Assembly: GCA_937864265.1 (NCBI GenBank)
Contig: CALMIR010000112.1
Location: 1-64,000, forward strand
Origin: an uncultured Saprospirales bacterium
GTDB lineage: Bacteria; Bacteroidota; Bacteroidia; Chitinophagales; Saprospiraceae
DNA length: 64,000 nucleotides
Direction of reading: 5' to 3'
Part shown: in pieces, positions 29,698 through 34,210 of the stretch
Layout of the letters: the number at the start of each line of letters is the position of its first letter
Numbering within the stretch: the stretch's first letter is position 1
Made by a program: the position numbers and the translations under genes
Notes under the pieces: model-generated
What the model was told of the DNA's origin: nothing
Databases searched by the model: none
Seen by the model: the letters and a program-made list of their open reading frames with translations, nothing else

Positions 29698-30273
29698 TTA
29701 CTTTTTCATGGCCGCGCTTTTCAGTCGGCTCAGATGCACGGGCGTGATCCCCAAATAAGAAGCGATCATGTGTTGGGGTACTCGGTTGTGTATATTGGGA
29801 AATACATGGTCAATGGTATCATATCTTTCTTTGGGCGTTCTGGCATAACTGTTTTTGATCCTATTGTCCTGGTAGATGAAGTAAAATTCGGCAATGAGCC
29901 GCCCCAACTTGTCCCCTTGAGTCATATTTTGATACCCCCAGTCAATGGCTTCCCGGGGCAATACCACCACGTTCAAATCTTCTAAGGCTTGTAAGGTATA
30001 AAGAGAAGCTTGTTTTAAAATAAAACTGGAATAATCGGCTATGAATTGATTTTCCAGCGCAAAATGAATGGTGTGTTCCGCGCCATCTTTGTCGGTCACA
30101 ATAACCCTTAAAATGCCTGAGTTGATGAAAAATATTTCATTGGGCACGAAGCCAGGCTTACTGAGGATGTCCTGTTTTTGGTAAGTCCTATGAAAGCATT
30201 TTTCTAAAAAAACACCCATTTCATCCTCTGAGATGCGGATCATTTGACGGATAGCGGCTTTGATTTGCTCCAT
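29698..30273 (-). CDS. Crp/Fnr-family transcriptional regulator
   Basis: 191 residues: an N-terminal cyclic-nucleotide-binding fold (about 20-115) and a short C-terminal helix-turn-helix (VPQHMIASYLGITPVHLSRLK). No cysteine cluster of the Fnr type is seen, so it is not an Fe-S oxygen sensor. This compact form is very common in Bacteroidota and usually controls an adjacent gene; the candidate target here is the downstream SDR. It starts only 9 bases after the stop of the Uma2 gene and so is probably in the same transcript. Confidence 0.85.
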   Translation of the reverse strand: MEQIKAAIRQMIRISEDEMGVFLEKCFHRTYQKQDILSKPGFVPNEIFFINSGILRVIVTDKDGAEHTIHFALENQFIADYSSFILKQASLYTLQALEDLNVVVLPREAIDWGYQNMTQGDKLGRLIAEFYFIYQDNRIKNSYARTPKERYDTIDHVFPNIHNRVPQHMIASYLGITPVHLSRLKSAAMKK

Positions 30274-30282
30274 CGCCTCGAT

Positions 30283-30948
30283 TCAAGTCATTATTTTTCT
30301 CAGCGCTTCCATATTGGCTGCCTCGTCGAATACGGCTCGTATCTCAATGGAAAACCCAGTGATAACACGGCTTTCAATAAGCCCTTTCCCAGATTTGAGG
30401 TGTAATTTGAAGTGCCCATTTTGAAGCAAGTACTGCTCTATACTTTCGTCTGTTGGGTCTATGATCCAATATTCTTGCACCCCATGCGCCTCATAGTCTT
30501 CAAATTTCACCCCCCTGTCGCGGCTTTCCGTGCTTTCTGACAACACTTCTACCACAAAATCAGGCGCCGGGAATTTCCATTGCCCTTTTTGAAAACATTG
30601 GGCTTTGTCCTGCTTAAAAAAAAACACATCGGGTTCGTAATCATTCCGCGTCAATGCGACCATTATCTTTTCGTAGCCGACGTAGCCCAGTTTATTCAAT
30701 CGGACAAAAGTATCCATGATTTTATATAAAAAACCCGTTGCGTCTGTATGTTCTTTTCTCACAGGCGAGTGGATAAAGACTTCCCCATTGATGAACTCAG
30801 CCTTGGTATCATCGTCTATATCCGCATAAAAGTGTTGGCGTCGCTGTCGCTCTATTTCAAGCGCGGATTGGATGCGTGCTACCAAGCTCGGTGCCGCCGG
30901 GCTATCCAAAATGGTCAATACCGCTTCTTCCTGTCTTTCCTGAAACAT
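30283..30948 (-). CDS. Uma2-family PD-(D/E)XK nuclease-fold protein
   Basis: 221 residues. The C-terminal two thirds follow the Uma2/DUF820 pattern: EFINGEVFIHSP, then EPDVFFFKQD, the nuclease-like PAPDFVVEVLSES, and YEAHGVQEYWIIDP. These carry the Asp/Glu residues of a restriction-endonuclease-like fold. The family is widespread, often in many copies, and its role is not settled. An unusual N-terminal extension (about 1-45) precedes the domain. It heads a likely operon with the Crp/Fnr regulator. Confidence 0.85.
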   Translation of the reverse strand: MFQERQEEAVLTILDSPAAPSLVARIQSALEIERQRRQHFYADIDDDTKAEFINGEVFIHSPVRKEHTDATGFLYKIMDTFVRLNKLGYVGYEKIMVALTRNDYEPDVFFFKQDKAQCFQKGQWKFPAPDFVVEVLSESTESRDRGVKFEDYEAHGVQEYWIIDPTDESIEQYLLQNGHFKLHLKSGKGLIESRVITGFSIEIRAVFDEAANMEALRKIMT

Positions 30949-31015: not shown

Positions 31016-31037
31016 TTGAGCGACCTATATCGCTCAA
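31016..31037. repeat. 8-bp hairpin between the divergent Uma2 and kinase genes
   Basis: ttgagcga (31016-31023) pairs perfectly with tcgctcaa (31030-31037) around a 6-base loop, just upstream of the Uma2 promoter and 50 bases before the kinase start. No T-run follows, so an operator or 5' leader structure is more likely than a terminator. Confidence 0.45.
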
Positions 31038-31087: not shown

Positions 31088-32497
31088 ATGGAACAAATAC
31101 CAAAAACAACGGATCTGCTGCCCAGGCTAAAAAGTTTCGATACTTTTAAAGACATAGAAGATCAAGCTTTGCAGTGGCTGATCGACCAATCTGAATACCA
31201 TTTTTATCGCAAAGGAGACTTCCTTTTTGAGCCAGAACAAGCCGTTGACCATATGCAGGTGTTGATGCAAGGGCGTTATTCCGTGCGGGTTATGCGCAAT
31301 GGACGCATGCGTGAATTAGGGGTTTGGGAAACCGGTTATATTACGGGTGTTCTTCCTTTTTCCCGAATGAAACAGGCCGTAGCAACCGGGCAGGTAATAG
31401 ACGATTGTTATGTATTGGCCCTTCACAGGAAGCATTTTACGGAAATGGTGAATGTCAGTTTTGAACTGACGCAGACCCTGGTTTCTTTTATGACCTCTCG
31501 CGTCCGCGATTTTTCCTTGCTTCGGTTTCAGGATGAAAAATTGATGGCCCTCGGTAAGCTCTCTGCCGGCTTGGCGCATGAGCTAAACAACCCTGCTTCT
31601 GCTATGGTGCGCAATGCGGAGGAATTGTACAATAAAATACATACCACGCCAGAAAAATTCAAGGCCATTATGGCTATGAATATTACCCCTGAAGAAACAG
31701 ATCAGGTGAATGAAATCCTTTTTTCTAAAATCCGCGACTTTGACCAAAAAGAAATGACGCTGCTGGAGCGGGAAGCCTTTAAAGACGATATTATAGACTG
31801 GCTGGAAGACCGAAACATTGAGGATGCCGACGAGGTCGCCGAAACATTTACAGACTTTGGGCTGGGCATTGAAGAGCTGGATGAAGTAGAACATATTATT
31901 GAGGGTAGGTCATTAGGGGCCATTGTCTGGTGGCTGGAAAGTACCCTTAGCTTGGAAAGGTTAGTTACTGAAATCAGGGAATCGGCCGATCGCATTTCCA
32001 ATCTGGTAAAATCCATAAAAGACTATTCCCACATGGATAGGGCGGTTAGTATGGAACAGGTTCAACTTTATGAGGGGATCAAAAGTACCCTGATCATGCT
32101 CAAGCATCAGTTGAAAACCAAAAATATTCAAATAGTCAAAAATATGGACTTCGACCTGCCTCCTGTAAACGCTTTTGCCGGAGAATTGAATCAGGTGTGG
32201 ACCAATATGTTTTGCAATGCGATAGATGCGATGGACGAAGGCGGCATCCTCAGCATCAGCACATACAGAGATCGCGATTTGGCTTGTGTTGAAATAGGCG
32301 ATACCGGCCACGGCATCCCCGAAGAAATACAAACACGTATATTTGAGCCCTTCTTTACCACCAAGAAAATGGGCGAAGGCACTGGCATGGGGCTAGAAAT
32401 CGTAAAGCGAATAGTAGATCGGCACGGAGCTGATATTTCCGTCGTGTCTATGCCCGGAAAAACGACTTTTAAACTCTGTTTTCCCTTAGCACAATAA
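31088..32497 (+). CDS. Sensor histidine kinase with N-terminal cyclic-nucleotide-binding-like domain
   Basis: 469 residues from ATG 31088 (an earlier in-frame codon would add 24 unlikely residues). No transmembrane segment, so cytoplasmic. Residues about 20-140 form a cNMP-binding/Crp-like fold (KGDFLFEPE, QGRYSVRV). The phosphoacceptor is H164 in GLAHELNNPAS; a long helical insert (about 185-300) separates it from the ATPase, which shows the N box (MFCNAIDAMDEGG), G1 (GDTGHGIPEE), F box (FEPFFTTK) and G2 (GTGMGLEIVKR). The next gene, 42 bases away, encodes its probable receiver partner fused to a flavoprotein. Confidence 0.88.
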   Translation: MEQIPKTTDLLPRLKSFDTFKDIEDQALQWLIDQSEYHFYRKGDFLFEPEQAVDHMQVLMQGRYSVRVMRNGRMRELGVWETGYITGVLPFSRMKQAVATGQVIDDCYVLALHRKHFTEMVNVSFELTQTLVSFMTSRVRDFSLLRFQDEKLMALGKLSAGLAHELNNPASAMVRNAEELYNKIHTTPEKFKAIMAMNITPEETDQVNEILFSKIRDFDQKEMTLLEREAFKDDIIDWLEDRNIEDADEVAETFTDFGLGIEELDEVEHIIEGRSLGAIVWWLESTLSLERLVTEIRESADRISNLVKSIKDYSHMDRAVSMEQVQLYEGIKSTLIMLKHQLKTKNIQIVKNMDFDLPPVNAFAGELNQVWTNMFCNAIDAMDEGGILSISTYRDRDLACVEIGDTGHGIPEEIQTRIFEPFFTTKKMGEGTGMGLEIVKRIVDRHGADISVVSMPGKTTFKLCFPLAQ

Positions 32498-32539
32498 TAC
32501 ACCTACATCTAAATTATCCATTACCAACACGATTAGAAA

Positions 32540-34210
32540 ATGTCCACTCAAAATAAACCCATTCTATTTTCCATTGATGACGACCCACAAGTATTGCGTT
32601 CTATTAAGCGCGATCTAAGGGCAGAATTCAAAGATGACTACCGCATTATCAGCACAGAATCAGCCCATGAGGCGCTGGAATCCCTGCTTGAGTTGAAAAA
32701 AAAGGGAGAGGAAGTCGCCTTATTTTTATCTGACCAACGCATGCCAGAAATGGCTGGTGTCGATTTTTTGGAAAAAGCCAAAGCCATTTTTCCTGAAGCA
32801 AAAAGGGTACTCCTTACCGCCTATTCCGATACCGATGCGGCCATTAAGGCCATCAATGAGGTGCAATTGGATTATTACCTCATGAAACCCTGGGATCCGC
32901 CTTCAGAGCGACTTTATCCCGTACTAAATGAGCTGTTGGACGAGTGGCAGGCCAATTACAAGCCCGAATTTCAGGGCATTAAAGTTATTGGTTACCAATA
33001 TTCTCCAAAATCCCACAAGCTGAAGGATTTTCTGGCAGGCAATTTGCGCCCTTACCAATGGATCGATATAGATACCAACCCTAAGGCCGCCGAGTTGTTG
33101 CAACTTCACAACTTGGATCGCAAATCTTTGCCCGTAGTGCTTTTCGAAGATGGGAGTTGCCTATGCGACCCTTATGTAGCCGACGTTGCTGCCAAAGTCG
33201 GTTTGCAGCCTACGGCTCAATCCGACTTGTACGATGTAGTCATCATTGGGGCAGGGCCTTCTGGTTTAGCCGCAGCGGTATATGGCGGCTCAGAAGGATT
33301 GAAAACGCTGCTCATAGAGAAAAGAGCGCCAGGCGGTCAAGCCGGCACCAGTTCGCGGATTGAAAATTACCTCGGCTTCCCCAATGGTGTAAGCGGCGCG
33401 GAGCTAACGCGCAGGGCCATTTCCCAGGCAACCCGATTTGGCATCGAATTTTTATCGCCACAGGAGGTCGTTGATATAGAAGTGGCGGGCGATTACAAGA
33501 AACTCCGGCTTTCCGATGGCTCTTCCATCAACTCAAAAGCCGTGATTATTACCACAGGCGTGGACTATCGCAAGCTGCCCGCTGAAGGTGCGGATAATTT
33601 TACGGGCGCGGGTGTCTATTATGGCGCTGCTACCACAGAAGCTTTTGCCTGCCAGAACAAAAAAGTCTTCATCATAGGTGGGGGCAACTCGGCTGGCCAG
33701 GGTGCAGTTTACCTGTCCAAGTTTGCGGAAAAAGTCAGTATTTTGATCAGAAAGGAAGATTTAAGTGCTACGATGTCCTCTTATTTGATTGATCAGATCA
33801 ATAGCATCGAAAATATCGAGGTGGTAGGAAGACGAGAAGTAGTACAAGTATGTGGAAAAGAACACCTAGAAAAATTAGTCATTCAAAATGTGGACGACAG
33901 TTCCACCTATGAAGCAGCAGCAGATGCCTTGTTCGTTTTCATTGGCGCTCGGCCTTACACGGATTGGCTGGGCGAAAAACTGTTGCGCAACGATAAAGGC
34001 TACATCAAAACGGGGAAAGACTTGCTCAATGACCCCCAATTTGAAAAAATATGGAAACGCCAGCGCGAGCCCTTCTTATTGGAGACCTGCCAACCGGGCA
34101 TTTTTGCTGCTGGAGATGTGCGCTCAGGTGCCATGAACCGGGTCGCTTCTGCCGTAGGGGAGGGTGCCATGGCCATAAAGTTCGTGCATGAATACCTGGC
34201 AGAGATTTAG
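32540..34210 (+). CDS. Response-regulator receiver fused to thioredoxin-like and thioredoxin-reductase-like flavoprotein domains, redox cysteines missing
   Basis: 556 residues. The receiver (1-135) has D13-D15, phosphoacceptor D65 (LFLSDQRMP), T93 and K116 (YLMKPWD). A glutaredoxin-like domain (146-222) keeps the cis-Pro strand (LPVVLFEDG) but has S155-P-K-S158 where CPxC would be. The FAD/NAD(P)H module (230-556) has GAGPSG (237-242), GGQAGTSSRIENYLGFP, GGGNSAG (380-386) and a terminal AAGDVRSG. Where thioredoxin reductases have CATC, this has a stretch ending AATT (363-366), so the dithiol is lost. It is related to proteins annotated as fused response regulator/thioredoxin-disulfide reductase. 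It probably oxidises NAD(P)H with another acceptor, switched by phosphorylation from the adjacent kinase; that is inference. Confidence 0.87.
   Translation: MSTQNKPILFSIDDDPQVLRSIKRDLRAEFKDDYRIISTESAHEALESLLELKKKGEEVALFLSDQRMPEMAGVDFLEKAKAIFPEAKRVLLTAYSDTDAAIKAINEVQLDYYLMKPWDPPSERLYPVLNELLDEWQANYKPEFQGIKVIGYQYSPKSHKLKDFLAGNLRPYQWIDIDTNPKAAELLQLHNLDRKSLPVVLFEDGSCLCDPYVADVAAKVGLQPTAQSDLYDVVIIGAGPSGLAAAVYGGSEGLKTLLIEKRAPGGQAGTSSRIENYLGFPNGVSGAELTRRAISQATRFGIEFLSPQEVVDIEVAGDYKKLRLSDGSSINSKAVIITTGVDYRKLPAEGADNFTGAGVYYGAATTEAFACQNKKVFIIGGGNSAGQGAVYLSKFAEKVSILIRKEDLSATMSSYLIDQINSIENIEVVGRREVVQVCGKEHLEKLVIQNVDDSSTYEAAADALFVFIGARPYTDWLGEKLLRNDKGYIKTGKDLLNDPQFEKIWKRQREPFLLETCQPGIFAAGDVRSGAMNRVASAVGEGAMAIKFVHEYLAEI

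Follow-up and report, generated by a model that had tools for sequence, protein, structure and literature searches.

Only a few response regulators have an enzymatic output, which in most cases acts on second messengers. Fusions of a receiver (REC) domain to a thioredoxin reductase (TrxR)-like domain have been catalogued in two censuses of two-component systems, whose accessible portions list them as predictions only (PMC5847659, PMC9953108). Enzymes with a TrxR-like fold that lack the CxxC motif are also known, namely the TrxR-like FNRs and YpdA (PMC10294844). Here we analyze a gene pair in a 64,000-nucleotide stretch of contig CALMIR010000112.1 (the window) from an uncultured Saprospirales bacterium of the phylum Bacteroidota. 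The pair encodes a soluble histidine kinase with a cyclic-nucleotide-binding (cNMP) fold and, 42 bases downstream, a receiver fused to glutaredoxin-like and TrxR-like domains. CxxC is absent from both redox sites in all homologues aligned, while the residues of both cofactor sites are conserved. The best reading, to which we give an even chance, is that the fusion serves as an NAD(P)H-FAD reductase gated by the kinase, with a non-disulfide acceptor.

The fusion resembles several described flavoproteins and departs from each of them. With TrxB (TIGR01292) it shares the two-Rossmann fold, the FAD and NAD(P)H motifs and a modeled flavin-reducing conformation. However, it scores 240.3 bits against a cut-off of 343.45, CxxC is found in 0 of 133 homologues, and the core is preceded by REC, a cNMP domain or nothing, with the glutaredoxin-like domain in between. 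AhpF likewise carries a thioredoxin-fold domain ahead of its TrxR domain, but its electrons run via two CxxC pairs, neither of which is present here, and the fusion reaches only 163 of the 503 bits set as the cut-off. The TrxR-like FNRs combine a TrxR fold with the absence of CxxC and are often labeled thioredoxin reductase (PMC10294844). Their chains, however, run past the last helix into a C-terminal extension that stacks on the FAD of the other subunit, whereas the modeled window fusion ends at residue 556 in the last helix of the TrxR fold, has another slot motif and bears attached regulatory domains. The domain combination of the REC-TrxR fusions in the censuses is the same as ours; their accessible portions make no mention of cysteine loss, kinase pairing or a zinc-finger link (PMC5847659, PMC9953108). 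Thus the architecture was already known, but the family-wide loss of both thiol sites, the class of kinase and the zinc-finger partner described below are unreported as far as the literature searched goes.

The NCBI product names are "Cyclic nucleotide-binding domain-containing thioredoxin-disulfide reductase" for a form with cNMP and core on one chain, and FAD-dependent oxidoreductase for the REC form. The protein with the former name shares the cysteine-free core with the window fusion but is a single chain with no kinase. Judging by its residues, the name thioredoxin-disulfide reductase implies an activity that the protein could not support in any known way, and annotation pipelines thereby mislabel the core family. 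Related fusions are annotated, as the first-pass annotation of this region had remarked, and we found neither an assigned function nor an experimental study of the core family in the open-access literature, although subscription papers may hold one.

To assess the redox sites across homologues, we used two collections. The first came from 395 genomes of the phylum, searched with no selection on cysteines; the core was found in 52 of them, and 53 proteins were aligned. The second came from a scan of named genomes with peptide patterns typical of the core family, of which the best 80 of 584 loci were kept. These 80 proteins are full-length, with 49–75% identity, and come from Bacteroidota, Cyanobacteria, Chloroflexi, Acidobacteria, Gemmatimonadetes, Actinobacteria and Proteobacteria; some are from the same genomes as the phylum search. 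In the phylum set, a cysteine in the TrxR slot and a CxxC in the glutaredoxin slot were each found in 0 of 53 proteins, the same result as in the pattern-selected scan. Across all 133 homologues, none has a cysteine within residues 358–368, the slot of the TrxR CxxC, and none has a CxxC in the glutaredoxin slot; five carry a CxxC elsewhere in the chain. The first-pass annotation had reported SPKS in place of the glutaredoxin CPxC and a cysteine-free reductase site, and had named homologues with regular cysteines as the sign of a merely decayed copy. Both replacements are present, and no such homologue appeared among the 133.

The TrxR slot is instead occupied by a conserved YYGAAxTE motif, in which Y361 is found in 133, G362 in 132 and E367 in 132 of the 133 homologues, and residues 363–364 are small. 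That a different conserved motif fills the slot throughout shows that it was rebuilt under selection rather than eroded. A one-residue indel falls at different places here with two aligners, so the residue facing each cysteine is uncertain by one position. E367 aligns with the acid that follows the TrxR CxxC, and an acid near the flavin thus seems retained. At the glutaredoxin slot, S155 is kept in 129 of the 133, and neither CxxC nor CxxS, the active-site signatures of glutaredoxins and mycoredoxins, is present. The middle domain is a remote mycoredoxin relative, with a TIGR02200 score of 36.5 bits (cut-off 89.5) and a match to PDB 2lqo at E 1.1e-5. A single cysteine, C371, lies six residues past T365 in 97 of the 133 homologues and is replaced by F or Y in 33; a cysteine at 517 occurs in 42. 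We considered and rejected other cysteines as a replacement pair that could serve as a general mechanism, C371 alone being semi-conserved. The host genome also encodes an ordinary thioredoxin reductase with CAVC.

The cofactor sites, in contrast to the thiol sites, are invariant or nearly so. In the FAD motif (GAGPSG), G237 and G239 are found in all 133 homologues, as is Q267; in the NAD(P)H motif (GGGNSA), G380, N383, S384 and A385 are equally invariant, as is Q387, and R404 is present in 132. The remaining FAD and NAD(P)H motifs that the first-pass annotation had pointed out are therefore a family trait, and by analogy with established families the protein would be expected to bind both cofactors. 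The AlphaFold2 model of the fusion has a mean predicted local distance difference test (pLDDT) score of 91.4 (57 sequences used) and that of the kinase 93.4; with such values the predicted anatomy of the pair is far beyond chance. Structural comparison of the TrxR part with VIA-align gave Z 34.3 and a root-mean-square deviation (rmsd) of 1.9–2.0 to 4up3/4a5l, and Z 34.0 with rmsd 2.2 to 5mh4, a flavin-reducing form, versus rmsd 7.6 to 5mjk, the flavin-oxidizing form of Lactococcus lactis TrxR. Among the ten closest structures (rmsd 1.9–2.6) are the E. coli complex of TrxR with thioredoxin and the flavin-reducing form from L. lactis. The model, a prediction made without cofactors, thus adopts the flavin-reducing conformation, in which NADPH meets FAD. 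Hydride transfer in an enzyme lacking a dithiol would require this arrangement.

The receiver contains the residues expected of a REC domain (D13, D14, D65, T93 and K116), in agreement with the intact receiver described in the first-pass annotation. D65 is found in 128 and T93 and K116 are each found in 129 of the 133 homologues. We found a tight link between this domain and the kinase. Among the genomes of the phylum, the kinase (E < 1e-50) is encoded in 48 of the 48 with the REC form and in one of the 347 others (Fisher p 3e-61, which is a guide only and not a true probability, since the genomes are related). In 39 of the 48, it immediately precedes the fusion on the same strand, with a gap of 7–255 bases. 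Four genomes of the phylum have the core without REC, and in these the kinase is absent too. Hence the kinase travels with REC and not with the flavoprotein. At the named loci, a kinase relative lies within 6 kb on either side in 71 of 80 cases, and several of the other nine meet contig ends. In other phyla the kinase is found downstream of the fusion, often with a 4-base overlap; this order and overlap are seen on plasmids of Actinobacteria, Deinococcus and Burkholderiales. The co-occurrence that had been proposed as a check on the pair is thus observed, and the pair is a real two-component system whose output is neither a DNA-binding regulator nor an ordinary thioredoxin reductase. At six loci (L134, L137, L138, L143, L167 and L193), two or three cNMP-kinases flank a single REC fusion, an arrangement in which several sensors might feed into the same flavoprotein; at L193 these are two "ATP-binding proteins".

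The kinase has a complete set of catalytic motifs, with the H box, N box, G boxes and HATPase domain all present. In the model, the phosphoacceptor helix follows the cNMP fold directly, and no distinct membrane domain is present. The distance from the H box to the second hairpin helix is 124–138 residues in all 103 kinases aligned, which exceeds that of a normal HisKA domain by about 100, and a continuous two-helix hairpin was found in none of the 103. The insertion is modeled as four short helices, and E232, W238 and W282 in this region are nearly invariant. It has no sequence match in Pfam or PDB, although it was not folded or searched on its own. The same insertion is found in a few kinases whose input domains differ, and at locus L096 the partner kinase bears PAS domains instead of cNMP. 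As the insertion is common to kinases with differing inputs, the hairpin and its insertion, and not the sensor, make up the constant part of the kinase. At another locus (L205, 3515–8853), two kinases with the insertion adjoin two REC-bearing proteins that lack the flavoprotein core. The input domain scores 38.2 bits for cNMP_binding (cut-off 27.5), but the phosphate-binding cassette FGE...R is absent, and the kinases instead show a conserved G-x-[IV]-[ST]-G-x-LP[FY]SR. With the cassette replaced, a ligand would probably be bound unlike cAMP in CRP, and canonical cAMP binding by the kinase is unlikely from its sequence.

The cysteine-free glutaredoxin-like and TrxR-like core occurs in three forms, with REC, with a cNMP domain on the same chain (L100, L101, L194 and L196–L198), or bare (L097–L099, L195 and L199). 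A small tree with one TrxR as outgroup separates the three, although the branch uniting all cNMP forms is poorly supported (0.23). The swapping of the input module on a constant core is our main reason to view REC as a gate.

A second recurrent association involves a UBP-type zinc finger (PF02148), which lies near the core in about 40 loci, some of them overlapping. In the phylum, the core is present in 32 of 35 genomes with the finger versus 20 of 360 without it (Fisher p 5e-30, uncorrected for relatedness). Operons of core, kinase and UBP finger are found in Streptomyces and Tsukamurella, and operons of ClpB, TrxA, UBP finger and cNMP-core in Rhodococcus, Nocardia and Streptomyces. At L088, L089, L093, L094 and L166, the finger forms the C-terminal end of a Kef-type antiporter (Na_H_Exchanger and TrkA_N), as checked with Pfam for L093 and L166. 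Three phylum genomes have the finger and no core, and in these it apparently lies beside or within such an antiporter (Pfam was run on one). At L206 and L207, the finger and the antiporter are encoded by distinct adjoining genes. The small FMN quinone reductases KefF and KefG are NAD(P)H flavoproteins that work with the KefB and KefC antiporters. The parallel is an analogy only, as the link here runs via the UBP finger, at some loci. We found no UBP finger in the window genome; for this genome we therefore reject the finger as a required part and regard it as an accessory. In the plasmid operons of Rhodococcus, Streptomyces and Nocardia (L196, 2834–5696; L197, 3822–6302; L198, 3834–6696), the thioredoxin keeps WCxPC. 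A DUF1931 gene follows the cNMP-core in two of the three, and CbpM lies ahead of the operon, joined there in two cases by a DnaJ-like protein, a heat-shock-like setting.

Taking these features together, we propose that the cytosolic kinase would be phosphorylated on H164 and would pass the phosphate to D65, as expected from established families, and we infer that the receiver could then gate the attached reductase. The latter derives from the thioredoxin reductase fold and has dropped the dithiol relay at both CxxC steps, so that electrons from NAD(P)H would pass to FAD and from there directly to a protein, a quinone or O2. The glutaredoxin-like domain would be retained as a docking or gating piece, and relatives may work likewise through the cNMP domain on the same chain. 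This proposal draws on the rebuilt slot, the invariant cofactor motifs, the flavin-reducing model and the conserved REC residues. It also draws on the linkage of kinase and REC and on the replacement of REC by cNMP or nothing, as expected of an interchangeable input module. The TrxR-like FNRs, for which the TrxR fold is workable without CxxC, lend it further support (PMC10294844).

Several points weigh against this proposal. No enzyme activity is known for the core family, and a non-catalytic sensor of NAD(P)H/FAD would equally be expected to keep its cofactor site invariant. The NAD(P)H oxidase activity and the signaling back to the kinase that the first-pass annotation raised as possibilities are likewise hypothetical. 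In E. coli TrxR, three arginines bind the 2'-phosphate of NADPH; only one of them is clearly matched by a conserved residue here, R404, so that the nucleotide could be NADH or NADPH, and the model carries no cofactors. Furthermore, no acceptor gene recurs next to the loci. The neighbor that does recur, the UBP finger, suggests a protein contact and not a redox substrate.

These points lead to the strongest alternative, which we consider a real possibility while placing it below even: the core is a sensor and not an enzyme, its conformation is set by FAD/NAD(P)H occupancy or redox state, and turnover is slow or incidental. The reader would be a protein partner, for which the kinase, the UBP finger and Kef-type antiporters are the candidates. 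Both thiol relays are lost while both cofactor sites are invariant, the recurrent neighbor is a binding module rather than a redox protein, its link to the core is strong, and the finger is fused to antiporters at several loci; in addition, the conserved hairpin insertion of the kinase sits where contact with the output is possible. A pure scaffold, however, would not need the E367 and the tyrosine that are kept beside the flavin slot, and the finger is missing from the window genome; any such interaction is hypothetical.

More broadly, and only tentatively, as we rather doubt it, the core could act as an NAD(P)H-flavin switch without thiols, responsive to the redox state of the cell. It would be set by phosphorylation or by the fused cNMP domain and act through the bacterial UBP finger on targets such as Kef-type antiporters, and the hairpin insertion would let the state of the flavoprotein feed back on the kinase. 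If true, such a switch would be a class of signaling output not previously described. The core is widespread, and would represent a pyridine-nucleotide flavoprotein under direct kinase or cNMP-fold control. The identity of the reaction, the ligand of the non-canonical cNMP domain and the role of the bacterial UBP finger are now directly testable.

It is improbable that the fusion is still a thiol-disulfide enzyme that works via other cysteines or those of a partner. The frequency of C371 and the actinobacterial operons, in which the cNMP-core gene adjoins a UBP finger and a thioredoxin with an intact active site, would fit such an enzyme. Yet no other cysteine is conserved, C371 itself gives way to aromatic residues and the cysteine at 517 is present in a minority, and the few CxxC motifs in the family never fall in either slot. 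Still less probable is a phosphate sink, in which the fusion would do no more than take phosphoryl groups off the kinase, with no signaling role for the flavoprotein. The E and N found in bifunctional kinase/phosphatases are present in the H box (HELNNP), a general property, but the core persists without REC or kinase in its sister forms, which argues for a role of its own, and the REC protein adjoining the kinase is the fusion at most loci. Lastly, although loss of catalytic cysteines resembles the decay of one copy, we reject a decayed thioredoxin reductase or pseudogene as next to impossible, given the identical loss in 133 of 133 homologues over many phyla, with open frames, full-length identities of 49–75% at the named loci and a conserved replacement slot, and the separate normal TrxR of the host.

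Positions of the predicted features of the gene pair in the window are listed in Table 1. Open reading frames and Pfam bear out the layout and residue numbering given in the first-pass annotation. The kinase gene starts with ATG, with an alternative TTG start at 31016, and the fusion gene also starts with ATG. All Pfam matches (cNMP_binding, HisKA and HATPase_c in the kinase; Response_reg and Pyr_redox_2 in the fusion) are at or above their cut-offs.

Table 1. Predicted features of the kinase-fusion gene pair in the window
Feature	Position	Strand	Basis
cNMP-fold histidine kinase, soluble, 469 aa	31088..32497	+	ORF (open reading frame), Pfam, AlphaFold2 model, ~103 aligned homologues
cNMP-fold input domain, residues 39-122	31202..31453	+	Pfam PF00027, 38.2 bits; alignments
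H164, predicted phosphorylated histidine, within GLAHELNNP	31577..31579	+	invariant in the kinase alignment
Four-helix insertion in kinase hairpin, helices within residues 201-271	31688..31900	+	alignment, model
HATPase_c catalytic domain, residues 366-468	32183..32491	+	Pfam PF02518, 78.8 bits
REC + glutaredoxin-like + TrxR-like fusion, 556 aa	32540..34210	+	ORF, Pfam, TIGRFAM-type scores, AlphaFold2
Receiver domain, residues 11-120	32570..32899	+	Pfam PF00072, 53.3 bits
D65, predicted phosphorylated aspartate	32732..32734	+	alignment
Glutaredoxin/mycoredoxin-like domain, about residues 146-221	32975..33202	+	TIGR02200; PDB 2lqo
SPKS (155-158) at CxxC site of glutaredoxin-like domain	33002..33013	+	alignment
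TrxR-like FAD/NAD(P)H domain, residues 230-555	33227..34204	+	PF07992, 121 bits; structure alignment
FAD motif GAGPSG (237-242)	33248..33265	+	alignment
G-A-A-T-T-E (362-367), slot of CxxC-acid motif	33623..33640	+	alignments
NAD(P)H motif GGGNSA (380-385)	33677..33694	+	alignment

A scan of the pair for promoters and terminators returned nothing exceeding the counts in shuffled sequence, and PADLOC gave no match to a known phage-defense component. A short way upstream of the kinase, on the opposite strand, lie genes that by eye encode a Crp/Fnr-like protein (29698–30273, minus strand) and a Uma2-like protein (30283–30948, minus strand). On Deinococcus and Nostoc plasmids (L192 and L200), a gene for Low temperature requirement protein A (LtrA) lies just past the pair. 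In Dyadobacter and Pararcticibacter (L108, L109, L111 and L121), EgtB/EgtD-like genes, assigned by eye to ergothioneine synthesis, are found near it.

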